From Candidatus Cloacimonadota bacterium (lineage in GTDB: Bacteria > Cloacimonadota > Cloacimonadia > Cloacimonadales > JAIOQZ01), in assembly GCA_021108395.1 (NCBI GenBank), contig JAIOQZ010000032.1, positions 1 through 64,000 on the forward strand: DNA of 64,000 bases. The letters are read 5' to 3'. Under the pieces are notes generated by a model. It searched no databases. It worked only from the letters and a program-made list of their open reading frames with translations, and had not been told where the DNA came from. Positions within the stretch are counted from its first letter, which is position 1. Each line of letters opens with the position of its first letter. The position numbers and the translations under genes were made by a program. Shown piece after piece: positions 5,884 to 53,954 of this stretch.

Positions 5884-6041
5884 GTTGCGGCGACATGCGG
5901 CGCTCCTGCATGAAAGCGGGAAATAGTATTTCGGAATCCTGCAAATCACGATTTTGACAATTAATCCCGATTACGACCTGCTCACTGTTTGAGAACCAGA
6001 AAAGATTTGACGTAGCCTTGTATCTGGGCATTACTGAGAAC

Positions 6042-7613
6042 ATGAAGAAAAAACTCGATATCACCGTGCTGATCGTTGAAGATGATCGCGAGATTCTCAC
6101 CATCCTGTCCACCGTTCTTGGCGAGATTGTGCGTGAGGTCTGCACTGCGTACGACGGCATTCACGGGCTGGAGCTATACGAGGCGCATCAACCCGATATC
6201 CTCATCACCGATGTCAGGATGCCGCGTCTGGGCGGGCTCGAAATGATTCGCCAGATTCGCTATCTGAACGACAACTGCAAGATTATCGTCATGTCGGCGT
6301 ATCAGGAGACCAGCTTCTTTCTCGAAGCAATCGACATCGGCGTCGATGGTTTTCTTCTCAAGCCCATCCACATCGACAGGTTGACCTCGCTGGTCGAAGA
6401 GCTGGGCAATGTGACACAGCTCGAGCGCAAGCTTGCCCTCGAAGAGGAAGAGCTTCGGCGGGTAGAGGTTGAGTTGAGCCAAAGCGAGGCGCGCTATCAT
6501 TCACTGTTCAGCTCGATGCAGGACGGCGTGATGCTGTTCCGGCTCGAAGGCGATGAACCGACTGTAACCATCACCGACACCAATATTGCCTTTACTCGTC
6601 TCCTGAGCGAAACGTCATGCGAAGAACTTCCCCTGCTCGAGCTGGCCACCGAGTTGAGCAGAACCGGCAAAGCAGTCGTTGTCGAACGTTATTTATCAGA
6701 TATCAACCGTCACTTTCGCATCAACCTGTTCCAGCCACAGGACGGCCTTTTCGCCGCTATCCTCACCGATCTCACCGACCACAAGCGCATCGAGGAGCAA
6801 GTCCATGCGCTCAATCGTGGACTGGAGAAGCGGGTCGAGGAGGAGCTGCAAAAACGCCAGGAGCAACAGCGGCTGCTTATTCAGAAGAGCAAGCTCGAAT
6901 CACTGGGCATTCTGGCGGCAGGCGTTGCGCACGAAGTGAATCAGCCGCTCACACGCATTTCGCTGGGTCTGGGCAACATCGCTTTCAAGAGCCAGCGCGG
7001 CAAGCTCAGCGGCGCCTACATCGAGGAGAAGTGCGAAACGCTGCTGGGCGATGTCGAACGCATCAAGACCATCATCGATCACATTAAGACCTTCTCGCGT
7101 GAACAGAAATCCGACCTGTTCGAGCGGGTGGACATCAACAAGGTGGTGCACGCTTCAATGCTGCTGGTGCAGAACCAGTATCGCAATCACGGCATCGAAC
7201 TGGTGACGGAACTGGCCGAGTCTGTCGAGCCGACCATCGGCAACCCATACCGGCTCGAGCAGGTTGTGCTCAATTTGTTGTCCAATGCCCGGGACGCGGT
7301 CGAAGAACGAACAGAAGTGTCCGATGACAACTTCGTGCCGCGCATCGTATTGCGTACTGTCCAGGAGACAGGTGTGGTGTGCGTCGAGGTGGAGGACAAC
7401 GGTATTGGCATTCCCGCCGACGATCTGGAAATGATTTTCGAGCCGTTTTTCACTCGCAAGGACACCAATCGCGGCACAGGACTGGGGCTGTCCATCAGCT
7501 ATGGTATCGTGGGCGAGATGAAAGGCAGCATCGAAGCGCACAGCAGCCCCGGCGAAGGTACCCGTATGTGCGTGCGTCTGCCGGTGATTGACACAGGAGA
7601 GCAACCGCAATGA
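6042..7613 (+). CDS. Receiver-PAS-histidine kinase
   Basis: N-terminal REC (VLIVEDDRE...DILITDVRMPRLGG...FLLKP), HisKA (GVAHEVNQPLTRI), HATPase (NLLSNARDAV, DNGIGIP, GTGLGLSI). Stop overlaps next start (ATGA). Confidence 0.9.
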   Translation: MKKKLDITVLIVEDDREILTILSTVLGEIVREVCTAYDGIHGLELYEAHQPDILITDVRMPRLGGLEMIRQIRYLNDNCKIIVMSAYQETSFFLEAIDIGVDGFLLKPIHIDRLTSLVEELGNVTQLERKLALEEEELRRVEVELSQSEARYHSLFSSMQDGVMLFRLEGDEPTVTITDTNIAFTRLLSETSCEELPLLELATELSRTGKAVVVERYLSDINRHFRINLFQPQDGLFAAILTDLTDHKRIEEQVHALNRGLEKRVEEELQKRQEQQRLLIQKSKLESLGILAAGVAHEVNQPLTRISLGLGNIAFKSQRGKLSGAYIEEKCETLLGDVERIKTIIDHIKTFSREQKSDLFERVDINKVVHASMLLVQNQYRNHGIELVTELAESVEPTIGNPYRLEQVVLNLLSNARDAVEERTEVSDDNFVPRIVLRTVQETGVVCVEVEDNGIGIPADDLEMIFEPFFTRKDTNRGTGLGLSISYGIVGEMKGSIEAHSSPGEGTRMCVRLPVIDTGEQPQ

Positions 7614-8980
7614 TGCAGATACTCATTGTTGACGACGAAGCCGGCATTCGCGCCGAGCTTACCGAATTCCTCTGCGAGCATGATTTCGAGGTATATGCCG
7701 CCGCTACGCCGTCGGAAGCCTTCGAGCAGCTCGAAAGGCGCGAGATCGACCTGGTTATCCTCGACATACGCCTTCCCCAGATGGACGGCCTCGAAGTGCT
7801 GCGCCGCATCAGAGATGCCTGGCCGGCACTCGAGGTTATCATGATTACCGGTCATGGCGACCAAGAGAACATCCTGCAATCCATGCGTCTGGGCGCATTC
7901 GATTTCTTCATCAAGCCCTTCCGCGTCGCCGACATCCATCACGCCATTCAACGCACCAGTCGTTTCATCGAGTTGCACCAGCGGCTGCACGACGTAGAGC
8001 GCACCTACAGCCTCATCAACCATGAGTTACAGGCAAGGATTGGCGCCGATCTCATTGGCCGCAGCAACGCCATCCACCAGGTTATCGAGCAGATGCACCA
8101 GATTACCGGCGCTGACGATACGCCAGTGCTCATTACGGGTGAGACCGGCACCGGCAAGGAGCTTGTGGCGCGCGGGATTCACTATTTGTCGTCACGCCGC
8201 GAGCGATATTTCTATCCGGTCAATTGCTCGGCCATTCCCGAGAGCCTGTTCGAGAGCGAGTTTTTCGGGCATCGAAAGGGCGCTTTCACCGGCGCTCTCG
8301 AAGACAAGGCCGGCTGGTTCGAGGTGGCTCATCGGGGCACGCTGTTTCTCGACGAGATTGGCGACATGCCGCCGGCGCTGCAATCCAAGCTGCTGCGTGT
8401 GCTCGAAGACCGCATGGTGCGCCGCATCGGCTCTACCCGTGAAGTACCGTTCGACACGCGTGTCATCTCGGCCACCAACCAGAACGTCGAGGCGCTCGTC
8501 GCCGACAAGAAATTCCGTCTCGATCTCTACCACCGCCTCAATACTTTTCACATCCACATTCCGCCCCTGAGAGAGAGGCCCGAAGACATACCGGTTCTGG
8601 TCGAGCACTTTCTCACAGACTTCGCTCGCAAGTTGCGCAAGCCGGTACAGGCCATCGCTGAGGACGTGCTCGACGCGCTCTGCGCCTATCCGTTCGCCGG
8701 CAACGTGCGCGAACTGCGCAACCTCGTCGAGCGGGCAGTCATCATTTGTGAAGGCGATACGCTGAACCGCAGGCACTTCCCTGACATGCCGGGGGGAGCG
8801 CCGTCAGTCGCCGCCACAGCCGAGGCGCCGAACGAAACGCTCGACCTTACGAAGATCGAGCGCCAGACCATTCTCAAAGCTTTGCGCCGCACCGACGGCA
8901 ATAAAGCGCAGGCAGCGGAATTGTTAGGCCTCTCCTGGAACGCTCTCGACCGCCGCATGAAGAAATACGAGCTGAGTTAA
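7610..8980 (+). CDS. NtrC-family sigma54-dependent response regulator (REC-AAA+-HTH)
   Basis: REC; GETGTGKELVARGIH, GHRKGAFTGA, GTLFLDEIGDMP, C-terminal Fis HTH (ILKALRRTDGNKAQAAELLGLSWNALDRRMKKY). Confidence 0.95.
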   Translation: MMQILIVDDEAGIRAELTEFLCEHDFEVYAAATPSEAFEQLERREIDLVILDIRLPQMDGLEVLRRIRDAWPALEVIMITGHGDQENILQSMRLGAFDFFIKPFRVADIHHAIQRTSRFIELHQRLHDVERTYSLINHELQARIGADLIGRSNAIHQVIEQMHQITGADDTPVLITGETGTGKELVARGIHYLSSRRERYFYPVNCSAIPESLFESEFFGHRKGAFTGALEDKAGWFEVAHRGTLFLDEIGDMPPALQSKLLRVLEDRMVRRIGSTREVPFDTRVISATNQNVEALVADKKFRLDLYHRLNTFHIHIPPLRERPEDIPVLVEHFLTDFARKLRKPVQAIAEDVLDALCAYPFAGNVRELRNLVERAVIICEGDTLNRRHFPDMPGGAPSVAATAEAPNETLDLTKIERQTILKALRRTDGNKAQAAELLGLSWNALDRRMKKYELS

Positions 8981-8983
8981 GAG

Positions 8984-9078
8984 CAGGGGTTTCACCCCTG
9001 AAGATGGGGTGCTGCCCCCACCCCCGTCAACTTTTTGTAAAAAGTGGAATCAAAAACTCTTGGCGGATGCTGACGCAT
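8984..9078. repeat. Dispersed intergenic hairpin repeat, copy A
   Basis: CAGGGGT-TTC-ACCCCTG hairpin, then CAACTTTTTGTAAAAAGTGGAATCAAAAACTCTTGGCGGATGC; same layout as copies B and C. Confidence 0.75.
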
Positions 9079-9206
9079 ACAGCACTCCTCCTCCCACATC
9101 ACCGTTTTCGCAGACTCTTCGCCAGCGCGTATTCGCTTTGCGGAAAGCGGCATTTCCGGTAAAGCCGCAATTCGCTGTCTTGCATCTGTTTGCGCCACAT
9201 GCCCCG

Positions 9207-9224
9207 GTTGGCATGGTTCTTGTT
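9207..9224 (+). promoter_or_regulatory. Candidate sigma54 -24/-12 promoter
   Basis: TTGGCAT-GGTTC-TTGT with correct N5 spacing, about 38 nt upstream of ATG 9261; -12 deviates (TTGT for TTGC). Confidence 0.35.
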
Positions 9225-9260
9225 CTTATCAGTGGTAATTGCGTAATTGAGGCGGCCACT

Positions 9261-9610
9261 ATGAACATTCTGATCGTAAGCAACCGCAACGATCTCTACG
9301 ACGAGTGGGAAGACTTCGCAGTGACACTCGATTCCCGCGTTTTCTTTGCTACAGATCGTAAACAGGCCGTCAGTCTGCTCGAATGCGAGCACATTGATGT
9401 GGCGGTGCTTGATGTGCGTGCCATGAGCGACCTGGGGCTGCTCAAATACATTAATGACACCCACACGAAAGTGCGCGTTATGCTTGTCACCCAGGAACGC
9501 ATGAGCGATCTGGTGGCGGTTGCCCGCGACGGACATTACAGCCTTGTAGGCGACAACCTCGACATTGCCTCGCTGCTTCATCTGATTGCCGAAGCCGGTA
9601 TGGAGGGAAA

Positions 9611-9614
<4 letters not shown>
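9261..9614 (+). CDS. Degenerate receiver-like (pseudo-receiver) domain protein, 117 aa
   Basis: MNILIVSNRNDLYDEW...DVAVLDVRAM...VRVMLVTQER: receiver-like layout. Stop overlaps next start (ATGA at 9611). Confidence 0.7.
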
Positions 9615-11945
<2,331 letters not shown>

Positions 11946-11953
<8 letters not shown>

Positions 11954-13133
11954 CAAGCTCGACAAAGCGCGCATTCTGCTGGTGGATGACGTCCCTGCCA
12001 ACATCAAGGTTGCCGGTAATATATTGCGACACGAGGACTACAAGGTGGTGTTCGCCACCAGCGGACGCGAAGCGCTCGAACGCCTCGGCGAAAGCCGGTT
12101 CGACCTCGTGCTGCTCGATATCATGATGCCGGAGGTGGACGGCTTCGAGGTTTGTCGCCAGCTCAAGCTGGATGAAACCACCCGCGACATCCCGGTCATC
12201 TTTCTCACCGCGAAGCTGGATACAGAGAGCATTCTCAAGGCCTACAACATCGGAGGCCAGGACTTTGTCACCAAGCCGTTCAACGAGAGCGAATTGCTGG
12301 CGCGCATCAGGGCGCACCTCGACCTGAAACGCAGCCATGAGCGTCTGCGGACGCTCAACTGCGAGCTCGAGCTGGAGGTGGGCACGCGGAAAAAGGTGGA
12401 AAAGAAGCTCCGCCAGGCACAGGCAAAGGTGCGAAAGACCAACTCGGAACTCGAAAAGCGGGTGAAACAGCGTACGAGCGAGCTGGAAAAGGAGATAGAA
12501 GACCGCAAGAAAGCCCAGGAGGCTCAGCGACAGAGCTATGAGAAACTGAACAGCATTATGGACGACATCATCCTCACCATGGCGCGGCTCGTCGAGATAC
12601 GCGACCCATATACGGCGGGGCATCAGCAGAGGGTGGCCGATCTGGCTGTGGCCATTGCCACCAAGATGAACCTCTCGAAGGATGAAATCGACGGCATACG
12701 CGCTGCCGGAATCGTGCATGACATCGGCAAGATGTACGTTCCAGGCGAGCTTCTCACCCGCCCGGGCAAGCTCGAGGAATTCGAGTTCAAGGTGTTGCAG
12801 GCGCATGCCGCCAAAGGTTCCTATATTCTGCGATCGATCGATTTTCCCTGGCCTGTCGCCGACATGGTGGGCCAGCATCACGAGCGGCTGGACGGCAGCG
12901 GCTATCCGGAAGGGCTGGCCGGTGATGAAATCTTGCAGGGGGCGCGCATTCTGGCAGTAGCCGATGTTGTCGAGGCAATCAGCTCGCATCGTCCCTACCG
13001 CGCGGCGCTGGGCATTGACGTTGCGCTTGCGGAAATCCGAAAAAACGCGGGCAAACATTTCGAGGTGGCCGTGGTTTCTGTTTGTTGCGAATTGTTTGAG
13101 AATAATGAGTTTAGCTTCGATAGGATGAGTTAG
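11946..13133 (+). CDS. Response regulator with HD-GYP c-di-GMP phosphodiesterase domain
   Basis: REC (RILLVDDVPANIKV...LLDIMMPEVDGF) and HD-GYP (HDIGKMYVP, HHERLDGSGYPEGLAGDEI, VADVVEAISSHRPYR). Confidence 0.93.
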
Positions 13134-13227
13134 GCAAGAGTCAGTTCATTGTCGCTAATTACTTGTTTTTGCGAAAATTGCTTGCCTAAAAAACGCCGTT
13201 ATACCGAATTATGTCATAAGGTGAATT

Positions 13228-14118
13228 ATGCAACACACACACAATGGCGCAGACACAGGGCAAAAAATGTCACTGCAAGACCTTATTGAGCAGGTAAACA
13301 AGTCCGACATCGGATCGCTCCGGCAGAATGTCGTGCGCATCCTGTCGCTTGTGCACAATCCCGCCACGTCTGCTCATGAGTTGAGCGACCTTATTCAGAC
13401 AGACCCACCATTGTGCTCGCGCATTCTTCGCGTGGCCAACTCTGCATTTTACGGCTCGCAGCGCCATGTCGGCGCCATCCGGCAAGCGATTATCTGGCTG
13501 GGGTTCAATACAGTCAAAGAGCTTGCGTTGAGCCAGAAGGTGTTCGAGCTGTTTCAGAACGGCAATGGCCTCGCTGATTTCTCGCTGAAGAATCTGTGGA
13601 ACCACAGCATGCTGGTGGCTGTGGGCAGCAAGCTCGTCTATCGCCGCGAGTTTGTCCTGAGTGGCGAAGAAGCCTTCACTGCCGGCCTGTTACATGAACT
13701 GGGGCTCATCATCGAGGCGCAGTTCTGCAAAGAGGTCTTTGCCTATGACCTGATACATCAGCATAAGGGCAACATGCGTCAGCTTGAGGACGCTATCCTG
13801 GGATACAACCACTGCGACATCGGTGGCGCCCTGGCCAAGGCCTGGGAATTTCCTGACTTCATCTCCTCAAGCATCAAGTATCATCACACGCCGGAACTGA
13901 GCCCGGAGAGGGGCCGTCGGCTGGTGCAGACCGTCTTCATCGCTGATACACTCGCTACACGCATCTATAAAGAGTTCAACGACGAGCCGGCGGAAAACAA
14001 GGCCACTTTCGATGCCTGCATGAGAGACCTTTCAATTGAGTCCGAGGCGCTGGATTTGCTGGCGAAAGAACTGGAGAAGGAACGTCAGATACTCGTCGAG
14101 AAGGGACTGATGCTATAG
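13228..14118 (+). CDS. HDOD domain protein
   Basis: DLIQTDPPLCSRILRVANSAFYGS...IRQAIIWLGFNTVKELALSQ...LLHELGLI is HDOD-like. Confidence 0.9.
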   Translation: MQHTHNGADTGQKMSLQDLIEQVNKSDIGSLRQNVVRILSLVHNPATSAHELSDLIQTDPPLCSRILRVANSAFYGSQRHVGAIRQAIIWLGFNTVKELALSQKVFELFQNGNGLADFSLKNLWNHSMLVAVGSKLVYRREFVLSGEEAFTAGLLHELGLIIEAQFCKEVFAYDLIHQHKGNMRQLEDAILGYNHCDIGGALAKAWEFPDFISSSIKYHHTPELSPERGRRLVQTVFIADTLATRIYKEFNDEPAENKATFDACMRDLSIESEALDLLAKELEKERQILVEKGLML

Positions 14119-14186
14119 CTGTTTCACGACATGCCGGACTAATTGACTGTTTGAGCGCTACGCTGCTATTGGGGGACACACGGCAG

Positions 14187-15473
14187 ATGAACACCGATCA
14201 AAACCAGAAGCTTCAACAACGCATCAAAGAACTTGAAATCGAGTTGCGTCATCTGCGCAACGATTATGACCTGACGCGCCGTGAGGTCGATGTCGCCAAG
14301 GGTAATTTTCTCGATATGCTCAAGAGCCTCGAAGACATCAACGTCGAGTTGGCGGACAGAAACGCGAAAATCGAGCAGCAGAAAGCCGAGATCGACAACC
14401 AGTACCGCCTCTTTCGCACTCTGCTTGACGAAATACCCAACCCCGTGTTCTACGAAGACGCTCAGGGGAATTATCTCGGATGCAACAAAGCTTTCTGCCA
14501 GGCTCTGGGCATCACGTCCGACAAGGTCGAGGGCAAGACGGCGTATGAGATTTTCCCGCGGCACGATGCCGAACTGCATCATCGCATGGACGACAAGCTC
14601 ATTCGCCAGGGCGGCATTCTGCATTACGAAACCTGCATTCTCTTTGCAGACGGCCTCGACCATGACATTGTCATTAGCAAGGCCGCTTACCTCGACGCAG
14701 GCGGGCGCATTCTGGGCATCGTGGCCGTGTGCAGCGATGTCACTCAGAGTAAGCGCAACGAACTCGAGCTGCGCCAGTCTAATCGCGCCAAAGACAAGTT
14801 CTTCTCTATCATCAGCCATGACATGAAAAACCCGCTCAACGCGCTCATGCTCACCACCGAGTTCCTACAGGACAACCACCAGGATCTTACGAAATCCAAG
14901 GTGGAAGATATGCTTGGCAATGTCCACAATTCGGCCAAGCGCCTCAATGCGTTACTGAGCAATCTGCTACAGTGGGCGCGGTCACAGTCTGGCCGCATCC
15001 CCCACGAGCCCACCCACCTCGATCTGTATAATCTGGTGGAGCAGATTATCTCACTTGCCGCCAGCACGGCTCGAGAGAAAAGCATCGAATTGGCGAGCGA
15101 CATACCTCGCGGGATGTTCATATATGCCGACCGCCAAATGCTGATGACCGTGCTGCGAAATCTGGTGTCTAACGCTGTGAAATTTACTCAGCCCGAAGGC
15201 AAGGTGCTTGTGAATGCCATTCTGCTGGACGACTGGGTGGAAATCACTGTGGCCGACAACGGCATTGGCCTTTCCAAAGCCGACATCGACAAGCTGTTTC
15301 GCATCGATGTTCACTATAGCACAAAAGGCACGAGCCGCGAGACCGGCACGGGGCTGGGATTGATTTTATGCTTCGAGTTTGTAGAGCGGCAGGGGGGCGA
15401 AATAAAGGTGTTCAGTGAGGTGGGCAAGGGCAGTACGTTCCGAGTTCGTCTGCCCCGTCAAGATGCCGACTGA
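14187..15473 (+). CDS. PAS sensor histidine kinase
   Basis: Coiled coil, PAS, ISHDMKNPLNAL H-box, NLVSNAVKFT, ETGTGLGLIL. Confidence 0.9.
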   Translation: MNTDQNQKLQQRIKELEIELRHLRNDYDLTRREVDVAKGNFLDMLKSLEDINVELADRNAKIEQQKAEIDNQYRLFRTLLDEIPNPVFYEDAQGNYLGCNKAFCQALGITSDKVEGKTAYEIFPRHDAELHHRMDDKLIRQGGILHYETCILFADGLDHDIVISKAAYLDAGGRILGIVAVCSDVTQSKRNELELRQSNRAKDKFFSIISHDMKNPLNALMLTTEFLQDNHQDLTKSKVEDMLGNVHNSAKRLNALLSNLLQWARSQSGRIPHEPTHLDLYNLVEQIISLAASTAREKSIELASDIPRGMFIYADRQMLMTVLRNLVSNAVKFTQPEGKVLVNAILLDDWVEITVADNGIGLSKADIDKLFRIDVHYSTKGTSRETGTGLGLILCFEFVERQGGEIKVFSEVGKGSTFRVRLPRQDAD

Positions 15474-15482
15474 CGATCTGGG

Positions 15483-16187
15483 CTATCCCCTGATCTTTGT
15501 CTTGATTTCCTTCAACATATCCATTCCGAATCGACGAATGATGGCGCGCAGTTCTTCCTCGCTGATTTCATCTCCCACGATGTCACGGAAAATAAGAAAA
15601 AGCCTGTCTTCAATTGTCATTTCCTGTTGTGGCGGCAGAGATACCATCGGCGTACTGAGGCGGCGACGCACCTTCTTGCCCAGACGCAGTTTCAGCTCCT
15701 CGATAGTGAAGCTGTGCGGGTCTGTTACCAGTCGGCCTGTGGCCTGCATGCGGTCGCGGGAATCACATTCGCGTCCCAGCAGCAGCAGCTTGGTAATGCC
15801 GATGCGATCATAGATGTCTTCGACCTCATCCATGCGGGAGCGGCTGCTCAGGATGTTGCTCAGATCGGTGCTGTAGCGCTGTTCGAGGTAGTCTGTAATC
15901 ACATAGAGCGCTTTTTCTATGCGATAGCAGTGATGTATTCCTCGGGGCGAAATGCGCCGCAGATATTCCTTCAATGTCACCTGGCCCTGGGTGGCCTCGA
16001 AGATGCCTTCCTGCTTCCACTTGATGCGAAGCCACATATAGTCAAAGGCAATCGCCAGAGAGTTGTCGCGGTATTGTTTATCTAACCTGGACAACCTGGT
16101 CTCAACGTTCTGAACCGATATCGGACGGCCTGGACCCTCGAAGAAGGCAGGATTGATGTCATCTGCTCGCGGTGTACTTGAATACAT
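15483..16187 (-). CDS. Uncharacterized protein, last gene of dynamin operon
   Basis: Long ORF co-directional with and closely spaced to the upstream genes; no family recognised. Confidence 0.65.
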   Translation of the reverse strand: MYSSTPRADDINPAFFEGPGRPISVQNVETRLSRLDKQYRDNSLAIAFDYMWLRIKWKQEGIFEATQGQVTLKEYLRRISPRGIHHCYRIEKALYVITDYLEQRYSTDLSNILSSRSRMDEVEDIYDRIGITKLLLLGRECDSRDRMQATGRLVTDPHSFTIEELKLRLGKKVRRRLSTPMVSLPPQQEMTIEDRLFLIFRDIVGDEISEEELRAIIRRFGMDMLKEIKTKIRG

Positions 16188-16203
16188 AGTTCCTCCCGTC
16201 TGT

Positions 16204-16647
16204 TTACAGTGCGCTTCGAATGAAAACCATCACTACGAGGAATAAAATCATGGCGACAGTGAGCACCAGCCACAATGTCAGGTCGGCACGGCGCTGAGGC
16301 AGCGTTTGCAGCTCGTCTCCCGATTCTACCAGAGGATGCTTGCGTCGGTGGATGTATCCTGAAACCTCCATCGCGTGATGGAAGCGTTCCGGTGAGAAGT
16401 TATCGATCAGGTCGTCCATAAGCAGGGCGAGGTAATTGTTGTCCCACACCGAGCGATTTTGCAGGAGTTGTTCGCCCTCGTGCCGCTGCACCACCTTCGG
16501 GCAGCGACTGCGAGCGATTTCAAATGCCTCGACCACCGCGTTATTCTCATTCAGCGGGTATTTGTCGATGAACGAGGTTAGGTGCGACTTGACACTAATC
16601 ATGTCGCGCTCGTTCAGAGCTTGCTCGAGGCGTTCTTCCAGGCTCAT
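16204..16647 (-). CDS. Predicted tail-anchored membrane protein
   Basis: Soluble N-terminus and single C-terminal hydrophobic segment LTLWLVLTVAMILFLVVMVFI; start abuts dynamin stop (16653). Confidence 0.65.
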   Translation of the reverse strand: MSLEERLEQALNERDMISVKSHLTSFIDKYPLNENNAVVEAFEIARSRCPKVVQRHEGEQLLQNRSVWDNNYLALLMDDLIDNFSPERFHHAMEVSGYIHRRKHPLVESGDELQTLPQRRADLTLWLVLTVAMILFLVVMVFIRSAL

Positions 16648-16652
16648 CATGG

Positions 16653-18899
16653 TTAAACATCCAGAATATTCTGCAGTCTCTGCTGGATGTTGGCCAGCCA
16701 TTCCTGCTGATCACGGCTTCTGTCGATTTCTTTGGCGAGGCTTTCCTGATCTTTGGTGAAGCGCCGCATTTGAGTGATTTTATCGAGCAGCAGGCTACGG
16801 AATTGCTCCTGCTTGGCCATGAACTCTTCCTTCAGCGCTTCAATAGCGGATTCCAACCGCTTTTCGGTTATCTCGATGTTCTTGTAGAAATTCTGTTTCA
16901 CCGGCGAGGTGAAGTTGTCGATGAGAAGATTCACATCGATGCGCCTTACTTCCTTGTGTCCCACTACCTCTTCCCGATAGGCTCCATCGAGCACGATCTT
17001 GGGGTTGAGCAGCGAACGCCGGATGTATGCGTACTGCGTTTCCTTGAATCGTCGGGTGGAATCGGTGACCAGGTTCGCCGCCTCGGGCAGATTGATGGTG
17101 AAGCTCTTGAGCAGGTCGGCTTGCAAATCCACATCGAGATGCGTGTTGGTGTCGAAGAGCTCGCGTAGATAGGCAGCGTAGCCTCGCAACAGATCCTGGG
17201 CTTCGCCCAGTACGCCATGCACGAAGGCCGTCTCGAGCTCCAGTTTAATCTCGCTCTCAAAGTAGGAGATGCGCCTGCGGGCGTCTTCGATGATGCTGCG
17301 CGCTTCCTCGAACGAAATCTCGTTGTGGCCCAGGAACATATCTATTATCGAGCTGATGAGCTTGGGTATGCGGCGGCGCAGCTCCTTTAGCGTACTGCGG
17401 TCGATCTGCAGCGAATTGATCGCCTCCTCGAATCGCGCCGCGTCTTTGCCGCGCTCCAGAATGCTCTCGATGTCGGTGATGGCTTGGTCGAGTTCCTCGC
17501 GTTCCTTTTGGTTCGCATGCAGCCGAGATTGCAGCTTGCCCTCGATTTCCTTGTCATCGAGGATGCGACGAAACGTTTGCATGGCCGCGTAAAACTTGGC
17601 CGGCACGGCATACTTGTGCAGGTATTCGTTGATGGCCACCTCGATACTGGGCAGTCCCGAGTGGAAAAGCAGCTTGGCGTCGGGGTCGTCACCAGCGCCC
17701 TCGAACAGGATGTCCAGTTCTTCCTGGGCGGTGCGAGACAGCGGAGCATATTGCATGAAGTTCATCTGCGGGTACTTGCCGATGACCTTCTGGAACTTGA
17801 GCATCTCGAACTCCTCCATACCGATGTCCATGCCCTTTTGCTGCATTCTGGCGAGCTTGGCGATGAGCGCCGACAGCGGGAACACGTTGGGGTTTCTGAT
17901 GCCCTTCTCTTCGAGGTACAGGCGTGTTTGCTCGAGAATGTAGGGGATGTCTTCCTTGGCGGGATTGAAGTTGTCGAGGCGGTTGACCGCGAAGAGGATG
18001 CGGTCGGAGAGCTGCTTGTCTTTGCCTTTCATGCTCTGGGCGACTGTGTCCAGCAGCATCGAGTCGTCGTTGATGCCGAACTGCGTGCCGTTGATGATAT
18101 ATAGCACCATCGGCTTCATTTCACTCTTGATGAAACGGATGGTGTCTTCGCGGTGAAGCTTGTTCAAAGCGTTGTTGGGGCCGGGGGTATCCACCAGAAC
18201 CAGCCGCATATACTCGCTGCTGATGTTGTGGATGTCGCCCTCGATTTCGATGGTCGAGACATCCTCGCGGGCGTTGTAGTCGGCGATTTCATCGGGGCCG
18301 ACATGCGCCCAGTCTTCGATCACGTTTTCGTTCGTGTCAAGGGCGCGGGCGCGATATTCGCCCGCCTCGATATCGCAGTCGCGGATGCGGCTGATGGTGG
18401 CGGTGCAGGCCATGTTTTTCACAGGCATCATCTCGAGACCGAGCATGGCGTTGATGAGGGTGGACTTACCAGAACTCATCGTTGCCAGCACGGCAATCTC
18501 GAATTCGGAGTTGAGCGCCTTTTCGAATGCCTCGCGCATCTCGCGTCCCCGAAGCTCCGGGAACGGCCCCTGCTGAAGGTCGGAAAACAGGTTTCGCAGT
18601 TCATTCTCCTGAGTTTCCACTTCCCGCCCTTCGTAGAAAACCAGCTCCACATGGCACTTGTGACGAGCCTTGTACAGCTCCACCTGCTCGGCCAGGTCTT
18701 CCATGTCGAGGCGGCGACCGTGGAATTCGAGACGGAAATCATTGGCGCCAGTCACCTCGGCGAGAGCCGGCAGGAGGTCTGCCACAAACGCTTGCAGGCG
18801 TTGATTGGCGAGGGCTTCGGGCAGCTCGGTCGGAGTTCCGTTGATCTTGACAAACGTCTCGATTGTGAAAGGGTTGTGCTTCATGTACACTGTGTTCAT
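16653..18899 (-). CDS. Dynamin-like GTPase
   Basis: P-loop ATMSSGKSTLINAMLG, G3 VDTPGPNNALNK, G4 NRLD, long helical C-terminus. N-terminal ~110-aa domain (HNPF...RLQ...FHGRRLDMEDL) precedes the G domain. Confidence 0.88.
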   Translation of the reverse strand: MNTVYMKHNPFTIETFVKINGTPTELPEALANQRLQAFVADLLPALAEVTGANDFRLEFHGRRLDMEDLAEQVELYKARHKCHVELVFYEGREVETQENELRNLFSDLQQGPFPELRGREMREAFEKALNSEFEIAVLATMSSGKSTLINAMLGLEMMPVKNMACTATISRIRDCDIEAGEYRARALDTNENVIEDWAHVGPDEIADYNAREDVSTIEIEGDIHNISSEYMRLVLVDTPGPNNALNKLHREDTIRFIKSEMKPMVLYIINGTQFGINDDSMLLDTVAQSMKGKDKQLSDRILFAVNRLDNFNPAKEDIPYILEQTRLYLEEKGIRNPNVFPLSALIAKLARMQQKGMDIGMEEFEMLKFQKVIGKYPQMNFMQYAPLSRTAQEELDILFEGAGDDPDAKLLFHSGLPSIEVAINEYLHKYAVPAKFYAAMQTFRRILDDKEIEGKLQSRLHANQKEREELDQAITDIESILERGKDAARFEEAINSLQIDRSTLKELRRRIPKLISSIIDMFLGHNEISFEEARSIIEDARRRISYFESEIKLELETAFVHGVLGEAQDLLRGYAAYLRELFDTNTHLDVDLQADLLKSFTINLPEAANLVTDSTRRFKETQYAYIRRSLLNPKIVLDGAYREEVVGHKEVRRIDVNLLIDNFTSPVKQNFYKNIEITEKRLESAIEALKEEFMAKQEQFRSLLLDKITQMRRFTKDQESLAKEIDRSRDQQEWLANIQQRLQNILDV

Positions 18900-18929
18900 G
18901 CGTGTCTCCTCCCTCGGCTGACGCCGGGA

Positions 18930-19259
18930 CTAAACTTCAAACGGGCCAAAGTCTCGGGTGAATGGGTATATCGAGACCCGCTTGCCCTGCAGGAAGTCGG
19001 CTTTCTTGAAAAGCTTGCTCTTGAAGATTACCTGATCGTTGCGGTGCAAAACGAAGTAGATGTTGGGGCGCAGGCGTTGCAGCGTCTCCAGGTTCGATAC
19101 AATCGCCACCTGGCCTTCCTCGCCCAGCTCCTCGGTATTGATCAGGCTGCTCTGAAATCCGGTTTTATGGAACACCTCGACCCAGAAGGTCGGGCCAACC
19201 AGAGGCTTCCCGGTGTTCTTGTCCACGAACGTGGCCTGGATGATGATTTCCTGTTCCAT
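18930..19259 (-). CDS. Small predicted beta-sandwich (transthyretin-like) protein, first gene of dynamin operon
   Basis: MEQEIIIQATFVDKNTGKPLVGPTFWVEVF...RPNIYFVLHRNDQVIFKS; GGAGGAACC SD. Confidence 0.6.
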   Translation of the reverse strand: MEQEIIIQATFVDKNTGKPLVGPTFWVEVFHKTGFQSSLINTEELGEEGQVAIVSNLETLQRLRPNIYFVLHRNDQVIFKSKLFKKADFLQGKRVSIYPFTRDFGPFEV

Positions 19260-19292: not shown

Positions 19293-19310
19293 ATACAAGA
19301 GTTGTGCCAA
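19293..19310 (-). promoter_or_regulatory. Candidate sigma54 -24/-12 promoter of dynamin operon
   Basis: Minus-strand TTGGCAC-AACTC-TTGTA; perfect -24, N5 spacing, near-match -12, about 36 nt upstream of ATG 19259. Confidence 0.45.
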
Positions 19311-19486: not shown

Positions 19487-19563
19487 GCCCCCGTAGCTCA
19501 GCTGGATAGAGCGCTACCCTCCGGAGGTAGAAGTCACGTGTTCGAATCGCGTCGGGGGTGCCA
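19487..19563 (+). tRNA. tRNA-Arg(CCG)
   Basis: GCCCCCG acceptor, D-loop AGCTCAGCTGGATAGAGC, anticodon loop CTCCGGA, T-loop GTTCGAATC, encoded CCA. Confidence 0.96.
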
Positions 19564-44298: not shown

Positions 44299-47283
44299 CT
44301 ACTTCAGAAGTATCATACGGCGGGTTTGGGTCTGCTCGCCGCTGGTGAGACGGTATAGATAGACACCGCTGCCCACTGGTTTGTCGTTGTCGTTGCGGCC
44401 CTGCCAGGTGAAGGCATGGCGACCGGCAATGAGCTGTTCGCGCACGAGAGTTTTCACTTTTTGACCGCGAATATTATAGATGTCGAGGCGCACATCGCCG
44501 GGGCGCTCGATGCTGAAAGCGATGGTGGTCTCGGGATTGAACGGGTTTGGCCAGTTCTGTTCGAGCCGTATGACCGGAACCGGCGCGTCATCATCGTTTG
44601 CGGGATACCAGTCGGCTCGGATCTTCTGGGCATACATCCCGCTGATTTCCGTTTTGCCGCTGGAACGGGCGTCTCGCCAGATGGACAGCGCATAGCCATC
44701 GTCGATGGCTACCACATGCGGCTCATACTGGTTCATAATGGCGTCGCAGAGGGGTTCGCCGGCGGTGTCGCCATAGAGGTTTCCATCACTGCCCACCTGC
44801 TGGACGTAGATGTCAGAGGCGGGGCCGAGGAAATCTGACCACAGCACGAGGGTTTGCTCTTCCACGGAGGCCAGAGACGAGTTGAACTGCACCGAGTCCT
44901 TCTGGACGACGAAGAGGCCGTTGGCATCCCACAGCAACTCGCCGGAGGCGTTGACCTTCTGCATGGCCACATCTTCGGCGTTACCGTTACGGAAGTCGCT
45001 CCAGGAAACATAGAAGTTGGCGCCGTCGAAGCAGAAGGCCGGGTCATACTGGTCGTTTGCGTAGCTGGCGATGGCGATGCCGTTTTCTGCCCATTCGATG
45101 CCGCCGTTGGCGGTTACGATTTGGCCATAGATGGCCTTGACCTCGTCGCGTCTGTCTTCCCAGATAACGAACAGGTCGTCATCAACCAGCATTCCTTGCG
45201 GGTTCAGTTGGTTCAGCGCCGCGTCGCAGAGAACCAGCGGGGTCTCGAAACCGGCAGCCGGTGTGCCATCGGGATCGAGCTTGGTTACGAAGACGTCCGA
45301 GCTCGAACGGTAAAGGAAATAGGGGCCAACAATATTTTCCATGAAGAGGTCGCAGTCTTCGCTGGCCACCACGATTCCGGTTTCGCCCCACTGTTTGACG
45401 CCGCCGGAGATTTTCTGGGCATAAAGGCGGAAATAATAGTCCCAGCCATCCTGTTCCATGTTGGACCAGGCAAAGTAGTAGTCGCCGTCCACTTCGGACA
45501 CGGTGGAGAATTGCTGGCCGAGGTTGGCGGTGGAAAGGGTCATGCCCGTGTTGCCCCAAAGCGCGTTGCCATCGGCGTCAAGCGCCTGGCAGTAAACGCG
45601 CTCGGTGCCCTCCATGATTTGCGTCCATGTAGCCACCACGCCGCCCTGGTGACGTAGCGCCGCTTCGGGGTATTCCTGGCTGGTATTCACGTTGTCGGTG
45701 AACGGTACGCCATTGGGGGTGAAGGCCACTTCGCCCTGGCTGCCTGTGCTGCCGCCCAGGATTTTTTGCGCGAAAACACGGCTGCCGTTGACGCCGAAAC
45801 GCGTGTCGATCCAGACGGCGTAGGCATCATTACCAGTGGGCAGCAGGATGGCGTCGGTGGCGTCGCCCGAAAGCCCCCAGTAAAATTCTTCGCCATCGGC
45901 GTCCAGCAAAAGGTTGCCGCTCAGGTCGAGTACCTGAATGTAGAGGCCGATGGAGCCGGTGCGGAAGTCGCCCCAGCTGACGAAGAGACGATTGCCCGAA
46001 CGTTTGATGAGTACGCTGAACTGCTCCCAGTCGGCGCTGCAAAGCTCGCGGCCATCCTCTTCCCAGGCGATGTTACCATCGGAAAGGACGTGCTGGATGT
46101 AGATGTTCTCGAGGGGGTGATCGCCGTCACGGCCGTCATCCCAGACAACATAGACGTCGCCGCTGTCGCCTGTCACGAGACGCTGGTTTCTCTGGTGGAA
46201 TGGCTCGTCACAGAGAACGACGCCGGCGGCGTTCCACTGGAGGATGCCGGCGCTGTTCAGCTTCTGCACATAGCAGTCGGTGAATTCGCCATTACTACGA
46301 GTGTCCTGCCAGGCCACAAACATGGCGCCGTCGCCACTGGAGGTGACGCGTGGGTTTTCTTGCTTGAGAGGGCCTGCATACACGACAACACCGGAAGCCC
46401 ACAGCAGATTGCCGTCGATGTCGCAGGCCTGTGCGTAGATGTCGCCGTCCGGGTCGTCACGTTTGTCGCGCCAGGAAAAGCCGAAGGTGTCTGCGCCGGT
46501 CTTGCACATTTTCACGCCTTCCTGATCTTGATCGGCGTCACAGAGGGTTGTCGTCCAGTCGATGACGCCATCGGTGAGGATGCGACTGACATAGATGTCT
46601 ATCTCGCTGAGATAGGAGTTTACATAGGCGAGGATGGCGCCGCCCTGGCCGTCTTGCCAGAAGGTGTGGCTGGACTGCTCGCCATTGCCGCCGGCAACGG
46701 CTATGCCGTCGTCTGTCCAGAGGTTGTCGCCATTTGCGTCCACATGGACGCCGTAGATGTCGCTGCCGCCGGGATTGCGGTTATCAATCCAGATGATGAA
46801 CGCGCCACCGTCGAGGTCGGGCACGATGTTGAGGCTGATCTGCACATCTGCCGCTGTGCACAGCGGCACGCCGCCCTCGCTCCAGAGCAAATTGCCATCG
46901 GAGTCGAGCTTCTGAGCATAGATGTCGCCGGCGAATTCGTTGGTGAAGTCAACCCAGGCGACGATGCAGCCGCCGTCTGTGGTGGCGATGACCACCGGGT
47001 CTTCCTGGCGATCGATTTTGTTGTCCACGAGTATCGGGGTTTCGCCCCAGAGCTTGTCGCCCTGCGCGTTGAGCTTTTGCGCCCAGACGTCACGGTCGCC
47101 AAGTTTGGTGTCTGACCACACATAAACGACGTTACCGTCGGTGAGCACGTCGGCTGCGCGGGTCCATTCGATGTTTTCGCCCTGGCGTATGGGGATGCCG
47201 TTCTCTTGCCATTCGGCAGGCGTATTCTGGGCGACGAGAAACGATGTGAGCAGCAAGGCTGCCAGCAGAAGTTGGAATTTCAT
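44299..47283 (-). CDS. Secreted repeat protein with T9SS-type sorting domain (tandem paralog 1)
   Basis: Repeated DIYAQKLDxDGNLLWxxxG units; signal peptide; NPFNPETTIAFSIERPGDVRLDIYNIRGQKV...TRRMILLK. Confidence 0.85.
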   Translation of the reverse strand: MKFQLLLAALLLTSFLVAQNTPAEWQENGIPIRQGENIEWTRAADVLTDGNVVYVWSDTKLGDRDVWAQKLNAQGDKLWGETPILVDNKIDRQEDPVVIATTDGGCIVAWVDFTNEFAGDIYAQKLDSDGNLLWSEGGVPLCTAADVQISLNIVPDLDGGAFIIWIDNRNPGGSDIYGVHVDANGDNLWTDDGIAVAGGNGEQSSHTFWQDGQGGAILAYVNSYLSEIDIYVSRILTDGVIDWTTTLCDADQDQEGVKMCKTGADTFGFSWRDKRDDPDGDIYAQACDIDGNLLWASGVVVYAGPLKQENPRVTSSGDGAMFVAWQDTRSNGEFTDCYVQKLNSAGILQWNAAGVVLCDEPFHQRNQRLVTGDSGDVYVVWDDGRDGDHPLENIYIQHVLSDGNIAWEEDGRELCSADWEQFSVLIKRSGNRLFVSWGDFRTGSIGLYIQVLDLSGNLLLDADGEEFYWGLSGDATDAILLPTGNDAYAVWIDTRFGVNGSRVFAQKILGGSTGSQGEVAFTPNGVPFTDNVNTSQEYPEAALRHQGGVVATWTQIMEGTERVYCQALDADGNALWGNTGMTLSTANLGQQFSTVSEVDGDYYFAWSNMEQDGWDYYFRLYAQKISGGVKQWGETGIVVASEDCDLFMENIVGPYFLYRSSSDVFVTKLDPDGTPAAGFETPLVLCDAALNQLNPQGMLVDDDLFVIWEDRRDEVKAIYGQIVTANGGIEWAENGIAIASYANDQYDPAFCFDGANFYVSWSDFRNGNAEDVAMQKVNASGELLWDANGLFVVQKDSVQFNSSLASVEEQTLVLWSDFLGPASDIYVQQVGSDGNLYGDTAGEPLCDAIMNQYEPHVVAIDDGYALSIWRDARSSGKTEISGMYAQKIRADWYPANDDDAPVPVIRLEQNWPNPFNPETTIAFSIERPGDVRLDIYNIRGQKVKTLVREQLIAGRHAFTWQGRNDNDKPVGSGVYLYRLTSGEQTQTRRMILLK

Positions 47284-47568: not shown

Positions 47569-47718
47569 ACAATCGTTTACACCTCGACAATGAAAAGTGG
47601 GAAGCAAGAAGGCCGCCTCGAAGTGAGACGGCCAGAATCGCGGAGAGAAACGAAGCTACTTGAGCAACAGCATGCGCCGTGTGGCGGTGTGGCTGCCTGA
47701 GCGCAACTGGTAGAGATA
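47569..47718. repeat. 150-nt direct repeat, copy 1
   Basis: Base-identical by eye to 50837-50986; covers 3' flank, terminator and C-terminal codons. Confidence 0.9.
47611..47633 (-). terminator. Terminator-like hairpin after tandem paralog 2
   Basis: Minus-strand RNA GGCCGUCUC-ACUUC-GAGGCGGCC (9 bp with one G-U), followed by UUCUUGCUUCC. Confidence 0.65.
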
Positions 47719-50673
47719 TATCCCGCTGCCTGCGGCCACACCGTGACTGTCGCGGCCATCCCAGACAACGCTGTGCGCTCCGGCGGGCAGACGGTCGTTC
47801 ACGATGGTGTTCACGAGCTGGCCGCGGATGTTATATACACACAGGGTGATGTGAGTGGGCGCGGCCAGGCTGAACGCTATCGCGGTCTCGGGGTTGAACG
47901 GGTTGGGCGTGTTCTGCGCCAAGTGTAGCGCGGGTGGCGCTGGGACGGGGTCGTTGACGCCGGTGACGCTGATGTTCACGCGCTGGGCGTAGATGGCGGG
48001 GGCTTCGGACGTGCGGCTGGCGCGGTAGTCGCTCCAGGCGATGACGACATGGTCGTCGCCGGAAGGCGCCAGTTGCGGCCAAAGCTGGTGATTAGGGGCA
48101 TCGCAGAGGATGACGCCGCCTCCCCACAGTGGTTCGCCTTCCACGTTGACAAGCTGCAGCCGCAGGTCGGAGGCGCTACCCGAATAGTCACTCGAATAGT
48201 CTCTCCAGGCGATGAGGGCGCCGTCGTCGTTGACGCTCATGGCCGATAATATATGGTGAGAGTCACCCAGTGAGACGAGAAGCCCCGACGGGTCCCATTG
48301 CGGGGTGGCGTTCATGTCGAAGTTTTGCAGACGAACCTGTTCGCAGGTTCCCGAGGAGAAGTCTGACCATGAGACGTAGAACCCGTCGTCGTGCACGCCG
48401 AGAAGGGGCGAATATTGGTCGTATTGTGCCACGACCAGCGGGGCGCCGTTCTCTATCCATGCTACGGAGCCGTCGGAATGCACGAACTGGCCATAGATGT
48501 CGTAGTCGCCGATGTCGTTGCGACGGTCTCCCCAGACAACGAGCAGATCATCGCCCACCATTTCGCCGTGCGAATGGTCCTGCCTGCCATCGGCGGCGCA
48601 AACCGCCAGGGGTGTCTCGAAACCGGGCGACAGCGTGCCGTCGCTTTCGAGCCTCGACACGAAGACGTCCACAGACGACTCGAACAGGAAGTACGGCCCG
48701 ATGATGTCGCGTATGAAGCAATCATGGTCTTCCTGGTCGGAGACCAGGATGCCGTCCGTTCCCCACTGGATGGCGCCGTTCACCACCTTCTGGGCGTAAA
48801 TGCGATAATAGTAGTACCAGCCGCCCGCACACTCCAAGTTTGACCAGCCGAAGACATACTCCTCGCCCTGTCGTTCGATTTGCACGTATTCCTGATAAAG
48901 CGGAAGCTCGCTCAAAGTCACGCCTTGTTCGCCCCACAGCAGGTTGCCGTCGGGGTCGCAAGCATTGGCAAAGACGCGGTTTGTTCCACTCACGAGTTCA
49001 ACCCACGCGAAGGTTACTCCACCTGAGTGATGAGGAATAGCGGTGAATTCATAGATACTTGATTCGTCAGACCCCACCAAGATTTTGCCCAGTTCCCCCC
49101 AGGCCAGGCTGCCGTCGGGAAGAATCTTTTGCACGCGCAGTTGGTCGGCGTTTCTCATTTCCATGTCCCACAGCAGGTAAGTCGCCTCCCCACAGGGGAC
49201 AAGCTGAGGTTTTATGTTCATGCCGGTGGTAATGGGGCCTTCTGCAAAGACCTGACCGTCGGGAACGAGAAGCTCGGCGCCGTCGAGAGTGAATACCTGC
49301 GACCGCAGGCACATAGCGTTAGCGTCATAGTACGGGCCGCATCGAGATTCGCCCGACGGCCACATATCGGCCCATGCCAGCATCAGGTGTTCGCCCGAAC
49401 GTGTTATGGAGGGTAGGTGTTGCCTCCCCGGCAGTGTGCATACGGCTCTGCCGTCCTCCTCCCAGAGAATGGTTCCCTCGGCGGAGACACGCTGGATGTA
49501 GATGTCATCACTGGGGTGCTGGTTGCGCTCGTCCTCCCAGATAACATAGACATCGCCGCTGTCGCCGGGTACAAGGCGGATTTTCCACTGGTAGTAGTCT
49601 TCATCGACAAGAGCGACGCCGTCGGCGTCCCACAGCAGGTTGCCGTCGCTGTCGAGTTTCTGCACATAGCAGTCGCAGTAGTAGCCGTCGTTTCTGGCAT
49701 CCTGCCAGGCGATGAACATGCAGCCGTCGCCGCTGGAGGTGACGCGCGGGTTTTCTTGTCTACAGGCACCGGCGTACACGACAACCTCGGAAGCCCACAG
49801 CAGGTTGCCGTCGATGTCGCAGGCCTGGGCGTAGATGTCGCCTTGGTTGTCGTCGCGGCGGTCGCGCCAGGCAAAGCCGAAGGTGTTCTCGCCTGTCGGA
49901 TACATCTTCACGGCGCCCTCGCACACATCGGCGTCACAGATGACTGTTATCCAGTCGGTGACGCCATCGGGGAGGATGCGCTTGATGTAGATATCGCTAT
50001 CGCTGAGATAGTCACTCACATAGGCGAGAATGGCCCCGCCCTGGCCATCCTGCCAGAAAGTGTGGCCGGATTGCTCGCCGGCGCCGCTGGCAACGGCGAT
50101 GCCGTTGTCGCTCCAGAGGTTGTCGCCACTCGCGTCTATGCGAACGCCGTAGATATCGCTGCCGCCGGCGTTACGGTCATCGTCCCAGATAATGAATGCG
50201 CCGCCGTTAAGGTCGGGCACGATGTTGAGGTCGTGCTGCGAGTAGGGTGTTGTGCACAGGGCCACGCCGCCCTCGCCCCAGAGCTGGTTGCCCTGCGCGT
50301 CGAGTTTTTGTGCGTAGCTCTCGGTGTGGTTGTCATCGATGTAATCAATCCAGGCGATGACGCAGCCACCGTCGGAACTGCCGATGATGACGGGGTTCTG
50401 CTGCAGGCCGGCGCTGAGGCACACATACACCGGCTCTTCGCCCCAGGGTGCGCTGCCGTCCGGCATGAGTTTCTTGGCCACCACCTGGCGAGCGCTCGTG
50501 CGGGTGTCTGTCCATACAAAGACAACGCCGCCGTCTGGCATGAGAGCCCCCCGGCCGCCCCATTCTAAGTTGGCGCCCTGCACCACAGGGATGCCGTTAT
50601 CGTCCCAGTCGAACTCCTGGGCAACGAGTGAACTCAGCATGCACAGCATGAGAAAAAGGCTTGCGTATTTCAT
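47656..50673 (-). CDS. Secreted repeat protein with T9SS-type sorting domain (tandem paralog 2)
   Basis: Same repeat architecture; MKYASLFLMLCMLSSLVAQEFDWDDNGIPVVQGAN identical to paralog 3; C-terminus ...SHTATRRMLLLK. Confidence 0.88.
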   Translation of the reverse strand: MKYASLFLMLCMLSSLVAQEFDWDDNGIPVVQGANLEWGGRGALMPDGGVVFVWTDTRTSARQVVAKKLMPDGSAPWGEEPVYVCLSAGLQQNPVIIGSSDGGCVIAWIDYIDDNHTESYAQKLDAQGNQLWGEGGVALCTTPYSQHDLNIVPDLNGGAFIIWDDDRNAGGSDIYGVRIDASGDNLWSDNGIAVASGAGEQSGHTFWQDGQGGAILAYVSDYLSDSDIYIKRILPDGVTDWITVICDADVCEGAVKMYPTGENTFGFAWRDRRDDNQGDIYAQACDIDGNLLWASEVVVYAGACRQENPRVTSSGDGCMFIAWQDARNDGYYCDCYVQKLDSDGNLLWDADGVALVDEDYYQWKIRLVPGDSGDVYVIWEDERNQHPSDDIYIQRVSAEGTILWEEDGRAVCTLPGRQHLPSITRSGEHLMLAWADMWPSGESRCGPYYDANAMCLRSQVFTLDGAELLVPDGQVFAEGPITTGMNIKPQLVPCGEATYLLWDMEMRNADQLRVQKILPDGSLAWGELGKILVGSDESSIYEFTAIPHHSGGVTFAWVELVSGTNRVFANACDPDGNLLWGEQGVTLSELPLYQEYVQIERQGEEYVFGWSNLECAGGWYYYYRIYAQKVVNGAIQWGTDGILVSDQEDHDCFIRDIIGPYFLFESSVDVFVSRLESDGTLSPGFETPLAVCAADGRQDHSHGEMVGDDLLVVWGDRRNDIGDYDIYGQFVHSDGSVAWIENGAPLVVAQYDQYSPLLGVHDDGFYVSWSDFSSGTCEQVRLQNFDMNATPQWDPSGLLVSLGDSHHILSAMSVNDDGALIAWRDYSSDYSGSASDLRLQLVNVEGEPLWGGGVILCDAPNHQLWPQLAPSGDDHVVIAWSDYRASRTSEAPAIYAQRVNISVTGVNDPVPAPPALHLAQNTPNPFNPETAIAFSLAAPTHITLCVYNIRGQLVNTIVNDRLPAGAHSVVWDGRDSHGVAAGSGIYLYQLRSGSHTATRRMLLLK

Positions 50674-53926: not shown

Positions 53927-53954
53927 AATGCCCTCCAGACGAGTGTTGCAAGTA
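53841..53954. repeat. 114-nt direct repeat, copy 2
   Basis: Matches 50588-50701. Confidence 0.9.

Follow-up and report, generated by a model that had tools for sequence, protein, structure and literature searches.

A dynamin-like GTPase and its tail-anchored partner in a Cloacimonadota bacterium: a candidate toxin-free derivative of a widespread operon family

The window analysed here, a 64,000-nucleotide stretch of contig JAIOQZ010000032.1 from a Candidatus Cloacimonadota bacterium, contains an operon built around a dynamin-like GTPase (g2) and a tail-anchored protein (g3). We give about an even chance to the reading that this operon derives from a widespread family of dynamin operons but carries no toxin, and that it serves to remodel or repair the membrane under envelope or phage stress, with g3 holding the dynamin at the inner membrane. 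Four minus-strand open reading frames were confirmed at 15483-19259:

18930-19259, minus strand: g1, 109 aa, a transthyretin-like/Ig-type beta-sandwich by sequence pattern; a separable domain
16653-18899, minus strand: g2, 748 aa, dynamin-like GTPase (Pfam, AF2, Foldseek)
16204-16650, minus strand: g3, 148 aa, NFSxxR-domain protein with a C-terminal transmembrane (TM) segment; the constant neighbour of g2
15483-16187, minus strand: g4, 234 aa, predicted helical; occupies the HerA position of the family's canonical operon

The close packing reported in the initial annotation was confirmed, with the g2 stop at 16653 nearly abutting the g3 start at 16650; the intergenic gaps are 30 nt (g1/g2), 2 nt (g2/g3) and 16 nt (g3/g4). 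A longer g3 start at 16701 is possible, and the family alignment supports 16650/16647. Shine-Dalgarno sequences of GGAGG type lie ahead of g1, g2 and g4. The reading frames are taken to be more than chance because all four have homologues in another genome. The operon ends at g4, which is met by a convergent histidine kinase gene (14151-15473). A tRNA-Arg(CCG) gene lies upstream of g1 on the plus strand (19487-19563); tRNA-linked integration was considered and rejected, the operon having no flanking direct repeat. A promoter-like element was found ahead of g1:

19294-19309, minus strand: putative sigma54 element TGGCACAACTCTTGTA, 35 nt upstream of the g1 start; exact match to TGGCAYNNNNNTTGYW

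The element is -24/-12-like and at the right distance, with GT rather than GC at -12. The pattern TGGCAYNNNNNTTGYW has 24 matches in the genome against 5 for a reversed control, the element having been picked after the fact and being without significance within the window alone. RpoN is encoded in the same genome (E 4.8e-49), and the module may be switched on via sigma54.

By its Pfam match, intact G motifs and predicted fold, g2 is a genuine dynamin-like protein. It matches Dynamin_N (PF00350) at 1.3e-10 and 42 bits (cut-off 27), and the P-loop, DTPG and NRLD motifs and the extra N-terminal domain noted previously were all located:

18630-18899, minus strand: N-terminal alpha/beta domain (aa 1-90), carrying the family motifs NPY/RLQxW/FxG
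18462-18485, minus strand: G1/P-loop ATMSSGKS (aa 139-146), invariant in 53 relatives except S143
18180-18191, minus strand: G3 motif DTPG (aa 237-240), invariant across 53 relatives (alignment)
17973-17984, minus strand: G4 motif NRLD, of NKxD type (aa 306-309), N306 and D309 invariant

The AF2 model of g2 is confident (pLDDT 81, pTM 0.78). The N-terminal domain is predicted with a pLDDT of ~90 and is conserved throughout the g2 family, and long helices at 416-581 and 656-746 form a predicted stalk (neck/trunk) after the GTPase domain. The best PDB match found by Foldseek was BDLP (2j69, E 7.4e-12), with SynDLP, IniA, Cj-DLP and mitofusins also matched; TM-scores are moderate (0.33-0.58). A phage origin of g2 was rejected, as no relatives were found in phage or IMG/VR sequences.

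To our knowledge, most bacterial dynamins have no known role. The membrane-remodelling GTPases BDLP1 (Nostoc), SynDLP, IniA, Cj-DLP1/2 and DynA resemble g2, and BDLP, SynDLP, IniA and Cj-DLP are among its top structural matches; however, identity to this group is only 12-17%, and g2 has the additional N-terminal domain. No g3-type tail-anchored partner was seen for these proteins in the literature consulted. In B. subtilis, DynA gathers in membrane clusters and delays the lysis of phage-infected cells (PMC8844932), and the dynamin-like GTPases of LeoABC promote vesicle release, with a link to secretion (PMC4159319). LeoABC/Eleos (ETEC, Helicobacter), which is PADLOC-listed, is also a case of dynamin-like GTPases in operons, but g2 matches neither LeoA nor LeoBC, the window has no LeoBC split pair, and the other partners differ. 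Bacterial dynamins usually work in pairs (PMC6104087), as is mostly so for the BDLP1/DynA group, and in the Cj-DLP, LeoABC and DynAB type a second dynamin gene lies alongside the first. In contrast, the window operon has no second dynamin gene, and g2 is the sole dynamin found in its 98%-complete genome; the remaining PF00350 matches there resemble housekeeping GTPases, two being Der and Era by their sequences and a third having the size of EngB. A solo dynamin may be non-functional or act differently, which counts against the favoured reading.

The second member of the core is g3, in which two features stand out:

16384-16401, minus strand: NFSPER motif (aa 84-89), N84 and S86 invariant in 33 relatives
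16219-16275, minus strand: C-terminal hydrophobic (TM) segment (aa 126-144), Kyte-Doolittle (19 aa) maximum of 3.08 at aa 126

W69, Y73, F85 and R89 are at least 90% conserved in the same alignment. The C-terminal segment is the only strongly hydrophobic one in g3, in agreement with the single C-terminal TM helix proposed initially. A g3 homologue lies immediately downstream of the g2 homologue in 72/72 testable loci, and the earlier suggestion that g3 is a membrane receptor or partner of the dynamin is therefore a good one. Window operon proteins had no significant match to PADLOC-listed defence systems, all matches being weak (mad8, 0.0034; PDC-M15A to g3, 0.0014); PDC-M15A was rejected as the identity of g3, since it matched just 1 of 33 g3 relatives.

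The closest relatives of g2 are members of operons rather than free-standing dynamins. An alignment-based scan of genome contigs located this canonical operon at 76 genome loci in many phyla, in the order (WYL regulator)-small dynamin-g2-g3-HerA/DUF87 ATPase-nuclease-immunity protein. The small dynamin, which matches PADLOC LeoA, is directly upstream of the g2 homologue in 68/72 loci, and HerA follows in 68/68 testable loci. As a polymorphic toxin, the nuclease keeps one N-terminal leader while its C-terminal domains and the immunity genes are swapped, and such swapping is the rule. The operon also occurs on plasmids of Lactococcus, E. coli and Treponema (pB26B, pTW10590_133 and pTS2); in a search for polymorphism within E. 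coli, megablast found it in only 1 of 5,426 genomes. Plasmid operons in Exiguobacterium and Ruminococcus have HerA beside a related stalk protein with no GTPase call by Pfam, and the Exiguobacterium pseudo-dynamin starts with the same NPY/RLQxW/FxG motifs as g2.

Neighbourhood conservation, proposed as a check, thus gave a divided answer: the g2-g3 pair is kept, but it is normally embedded in a longer operon that also encodes a second dynamin, HerA and a nuclease/immunity pair. A testable rule follows: a large dynamin with the N-terminal domain almost always has, next in line, a small tail-anchored NFSxxR protein and then, except in the window's Cloacimonadota family, a HerA ATPase with an exchangeable nuclease/immunity pair. 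This fixed operon ties dynamins to polymorphic toxins. Neither that link nor a description or name for the operon was found in the open literature searched. One analogy, for the logic of the canonical operon and not for the window, may be type VIIb secretion, which combines an FtsK/HerA-type ATPase (EssC), LXG toxins with a common N-terminal leader and swapped C-terminal nuclease, and SUKH immunity (PMC3482391); however, WXG, LXG or Ess proteins were not recognised in the canonical operon, which has dynamins instead. It is possible, as a tentative proposal, that the parent family is a so far undescribed machine for toxin delivery or membrane-triggered defence: two dynamins and the tail-anchored protein would open or fuse membranes to serve a HerA-type pump, which would handle polymorphic nuclease toxins bearing the leader. 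The window operon would then be a toxin-free, domesticated branch in which the solo dynamin and g3 have acquired another use, with g4 as their new partner.

In common with the canonical family, the window operon has a full-length dynamin that carries the N-terminal domain and, after it, the g3 gene. It lacks the WYL regulator, small dynamin, HerA/DUF87 ATPase, nuclease toxin and immunity protein, and has g1 and g4 instead. Neither the partner dynamin nor the family HerA/DUF87 ATPase was found anywhere in its genome assembly; genome G003 served as positive control (E 3.9e-194 for HerA). The same g2-g3 core plus g4 occurs in G001, a genome from another genus of the window's family, where it lies on a contig of 3.2 kb and the dynamin gene is interrupted by an in-frame stop; the window-type operon has been found in these two genomes. 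The g2 protein is 50% identical to the G001 dynamin and 28-37% identical to canonical dynamins. Both window-type dynamins nest among the canonical ones in FastTree and IQ-TREE trees, in which the deep branches are weak (0.89-0.90 and labels of 19-75, respectively) and would allow either loss or a separate origin. We infer that the partner dynamin and the half with HerA, toxin and immunity protein were lost rather than primitively absent, and the window operon appears to be related to a toxin or defence machine but to have been disarmed. That so many genes are missing, together with the G001 stop codon, would also fit a decaying remnant without function. This is very unlikely, as the four window frames are open, the GTPase motifs, invariant family residues and NFSxxR are intact, the core has been maintained across two genera at only 50% identity, and plausible ribosome sites and the promoter-like element are still present.

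An unlikely alternative is a housekeeping operon for envelope physiology, such as vesicle release or division, that is unrelated to conflict and resembles the toxin operons merely by ancestry. The absence of toxin and immunity genes is consistent with this, as are the surrounding signalling and transport genes and the GC and GC3 of the operon, which are close to those of adjoining genes and give no clear sign of recent transfer. Across the order, however, large-dynamin relatives with the window architecture were found in only 2/33 sampled genera and are missing from most relatives, unlike a housekeeping gene.

As the HerA-toxin-immunity half and partner dynamin are gone, the module most likely acts in membrane remodelling or repair and not by toxin action. 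In the mechanism that we favour, the cytoplasmic NFSxxR domain of g3 would be held at the inner membrane by its one C-terminal helix and would anchor or recruit g2 there. On GTP binding, the stalk and GTPase parts of g2 would assemble, building a scaffold for the remodelling or patching of the membrane, and hydrolysis would reset it. The core, together with a second dynamin, would in canonical operons be coupled to the HerA-type pumping ATPase, polymorphic nuclease toxin and immunity protein; in the window, g4 would stand in place of these missing parts and, depending on its role, could alter this picture. Recruitment by g3, remodelling and the stress role are what we infer from this arrangement, and the toxin-less version is a natural experiment in which membrane half and killing half are separated.

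A further possibility is that g4 is itself a new effector replacing HerA and the toxin, released or activated when the dynamin and g3 sense membrane damage, such that the operon still serves conflict or defence. Its position directly after g3, exactly where HerA would be, is kept in both genera, and canonical operons routinely exchange their effectors. This reading is nevertheless improbable: g4 matched no toxin or nuclease family, with only one weak PADLOC match, and no immunity gene follows it. A visual resemblance to the canonical toxin leader (PxF...SV.N.E) was rejected by the negative toxin-leader HMM, and neither g4 nor g1 showed similarity to the HerA, small-dynamin or g3 profiles (hhalign probabilities < 1%), against an origin of either as a diverged fragment of these. 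The single-sequence AF2 model of g4 had no usable fold and was left out of the fold search because of its pLDDT of 38. The only homologue found for g4 is that in G001; sequence searches of viral contigs and plasmids returned none outside the phylum.

The membrane-remodelling or envelope-stress module proposed in the initial annotation survives as a real dynamin with a co-inherited tail-anchored partner, but not as a conserved set of four genes: related genomes carry the dynamin without g1 and g4, never without g3 in the testable loci. No family match was found for g1. Its homologue in G001, the sole family relative, is unlinked to the dynamin (contig C255) and adjoins a DUF3880/Maf-type glycosyltransferase gene, and a g1-like domain opens a 530-aa HExxH protein in another genome (G102).

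An initial annotation had placed four minus-strand ORFs here; all four were present where it put them, separated by gaps of 30 (g1/g2), 2 (g2/g3) and 16 nt (g3/g4):

19259-18930, minus strand: g1, transthyretin-like, 109 aa ORF
18899-16653, minus strand: g2, dynamin-like GTPase, 748 aa ORF
16650-16204, minus strand: g3, protein with a C-terminal TM segment, 148 aa ORF
16187-15483, minus strand: g4, predicted helical protein, 234 aa ORF
14151-15473, convergent with the operon, downstream of g4: histidine kinase
upstream of the operon: tRNA-Arg(CCG)

Among the genomes in the collection, the nearest named relatives of this genome (2.89 Mb, 62 contigs, 98% complete) are Candidatus Cloacimonadota MAGs.

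Only g2 among the four had a family match (Dynamin_N, 1.3e-10). Its P-loop, DTPG and NRLD motifs were intact, with key residues invariant across 53 relatives. An AF2 model built from a 53-sequence alignment (mean pLDDT 81, pTM 0.78) comprised an N-terminal alpha/beta domain (residues 1-90, pLDDT ~90), the GTPase domain and a long helical stalk. Foldseek comparison of this model with the PDB retrieved BDLP (E 7.4e-12), SynDLP, IniA, mitofusins and the Cj-DLP pair, and a profile search of PDB sequences agreed; g2 is a dynamin-like protein. No other dynamin was found in the window genome, where the remaining PF00350 matches resemble housekeeping GTPases (Der and Era could be recognised; the third match is EngB-sized). 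Bacterial dynamins are mostly encoded as pairs (PMC6104087), and a solo g2 is therefore itself unusual.

Searching plasmids by tblastn returned full-length g2 relatives (28-33% identity) from Lactococcus, E. coli and Treponema, in three neighbourhoods with a common plan: a small dynamin, a large one homologous to g2, one or two short hypothetical genes, a HerA/DUF87 ATPase of ~1,075-1,100 aa, an HNH-type nuclease and, at the end, a small gene that in two cases encoded an SMI1/KNR4 (SUKH) protein. Two of the three operons were preceded by a WYL regulator. Scanning GTDB genomes with the g2 alignment found 305 relatives; 80 of these were retained. The 76 non-duplicate loci came from Bacillota, Spirochaetota, Bacteroidota, Proteobacteria, Campylobacterota, Planctomycetota, Fusobacteriota and Cloacimonadota. 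Among testable loci, a small dynamin was immediately upstream of the g2 homologue in 68/72, and HerA lay within 2.5 kb in 68/68. The g2 homologue was directly followed by a g3 homologue in 72/72, a count that indicates consistency and is not an independent test, as the g3 profile contains sequences from the counted positions. Examples of this canonical operon are:

L015, 5748-14531
L016, 7012-15411
L017, 5371-15289
also L020-L098

The canonical operon is widespread and places dynamins alongside a HerA ATPase and a polymorphic nuclease toxin. No description or name for it was found in the literature searched, although such absence is not proof. This parent system merits more attention than the window operon.

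Proteins encoded after HerA (n=59) included matches to WHH nuclease (29), LHH (9), Endonuclea_NS_2 (5) and papain-fold glutamine deamidase (2) models; the next proteins in line (n=43) included matches to SUKH (20), DUF6985 (9) and YezG-like (1) models. Toxins had no detectable similarity in 26 of 84 locus pairs whose HerA proteins were at least 60% identical. In two Brachyspira species (L059 and L067) HerA is 91% identical and the toxin and immunity genes are unrelated, a natural toxin swap. An N-terminal leader (~50 aa, DKPL/DKPM-like motif) was common to 49 locus pairs with unrelated C-termini. Polymorphic toxins have this architecture of conserved leader, swapped toxin and swapped immunity (PMC3482391). 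By sequence comparison, the toxin of the canonical operon is thus polymorphic, exchanged while the machinery stays constant.

On two plasmids, the neighbour of HerA matches the g2 profile but has no Pfam GTPase match:

L119, 4073-6049, Exiguobacterium plasmid: g2-related protein with the N-terminal motifs of the g2 family, adjoining HerA; then come a WHH nuclease and SUKH
L120, 4333-5964, Ruminococcus plasmid: g2-related protein beside a related HerA

The two operon halves can therefore vary separately.

The window operon is a toxin-free variant of this system. Its gene content, homology and linkage are direct observations. So is the lack of a toxin half in the assembly: canonical-family HerA and the small dynamin were not found in the window genome in a search with a positive control (genome G003), and a previous HerA search that had no control agreed. 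The g2-g3-g4 arrangement recurs in G001, from another genus of the same family, on a 3.2-kb contig whose dynamin is 50% identical to g2 and has one in-frame stop; G001 has only distant HerA-like matches, on other contigs. Both dynamins fall among canonical dynamins in trees, but the deep branches are weak (FastTree 0.89-0.90; IQ-TREE labels on the path 19-75, which may shift on re-rooting). The simplest, though unproven, reading is therefore secondary loss.

Neither g1, g3 nor g4 matched Pfam, NCBIfam or PHROG, and PADLOC matches were weak at most. g4 was found in the window genome and G001 only; its single-sequence AF2 model was unusable. The G001 homologue of g1 lies on a different contig from the dynamin, adjoining a DUF3880/Maf-type glycosyltransferase gene. 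In genome G102 (L105, 7327-8919) a g1-related domain begins a 530-aa protein that seems to contain g1-like beta-sandwich copies in tandem, with a metalloprotease-like HExxH region at its C-terminus; a 1495-aa membrane/NTPase-like protein follows. g1 is not tied to the dynamin. The four-gene module initially proposed is a real operon with a conserved g2-g3 core, and is not conserved as a set.

The best-supported part of that proposal was a membrane-anchored dynamin partner: the g3 family is conserved, directly follows g2 and carries a hydrophobic segment at its C-terminus (one helix in the window protein; in other members frequently a Gly-rich hairpin). Its short domain has common residues W69, Y73, N84-F85-S86 and R89 (window numbering). 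With window g3 alone, phmmer gave 78 ORF matches at E up to 1; the best listed, besides the window and G001 gene copies, sit directly after a large dynamin. We infer all functions of the window operon, including dynamin recruitment by g3. Most likely, g3 would tether g2 to the inner membrane, and assembly of g2 there, driven by GTP, would remodel or stabilise this membrane during envelope or phage stress. There are two precedents: DynA forms clusters at the membrane and, once phage has infected the cell, delays lysis (PMC8844932), and LeoABC promotes the release of vesicles (PMC4159319).

A sigma54-like -24/-12 element, TGGCACAACTCTTGTA (19309-19294, minus strand), with GT replacing GC, lies 35 nt upstream of g1. 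The pattern had 24 genome matches, against 5 for a reversed control, and RpoN is encoded in the genome. As its count within the window alone was not above chance, a sigma54 promoter for the operon is suggestive only. The 23 other matches could mark out a Cloacimonadota RpoN regulon.

Signalling genes (hybrid kinases, an NtrC-type regulator, HD-GYP, HDOD and a histidine kinase) cluster beside the operon at 6018-15473. Farther off, 23618-54073 encodes a series of large secreted-looking proteins with a common FlgD-like C-terminal region (...SGVYLYRLxxGxxxxxRRMxLLK) that is reminiscent of a C-terminal sorting signal; within this run, 44299-47283, 47656-50673 and 50924-54073 are apparent tandem paralogues.
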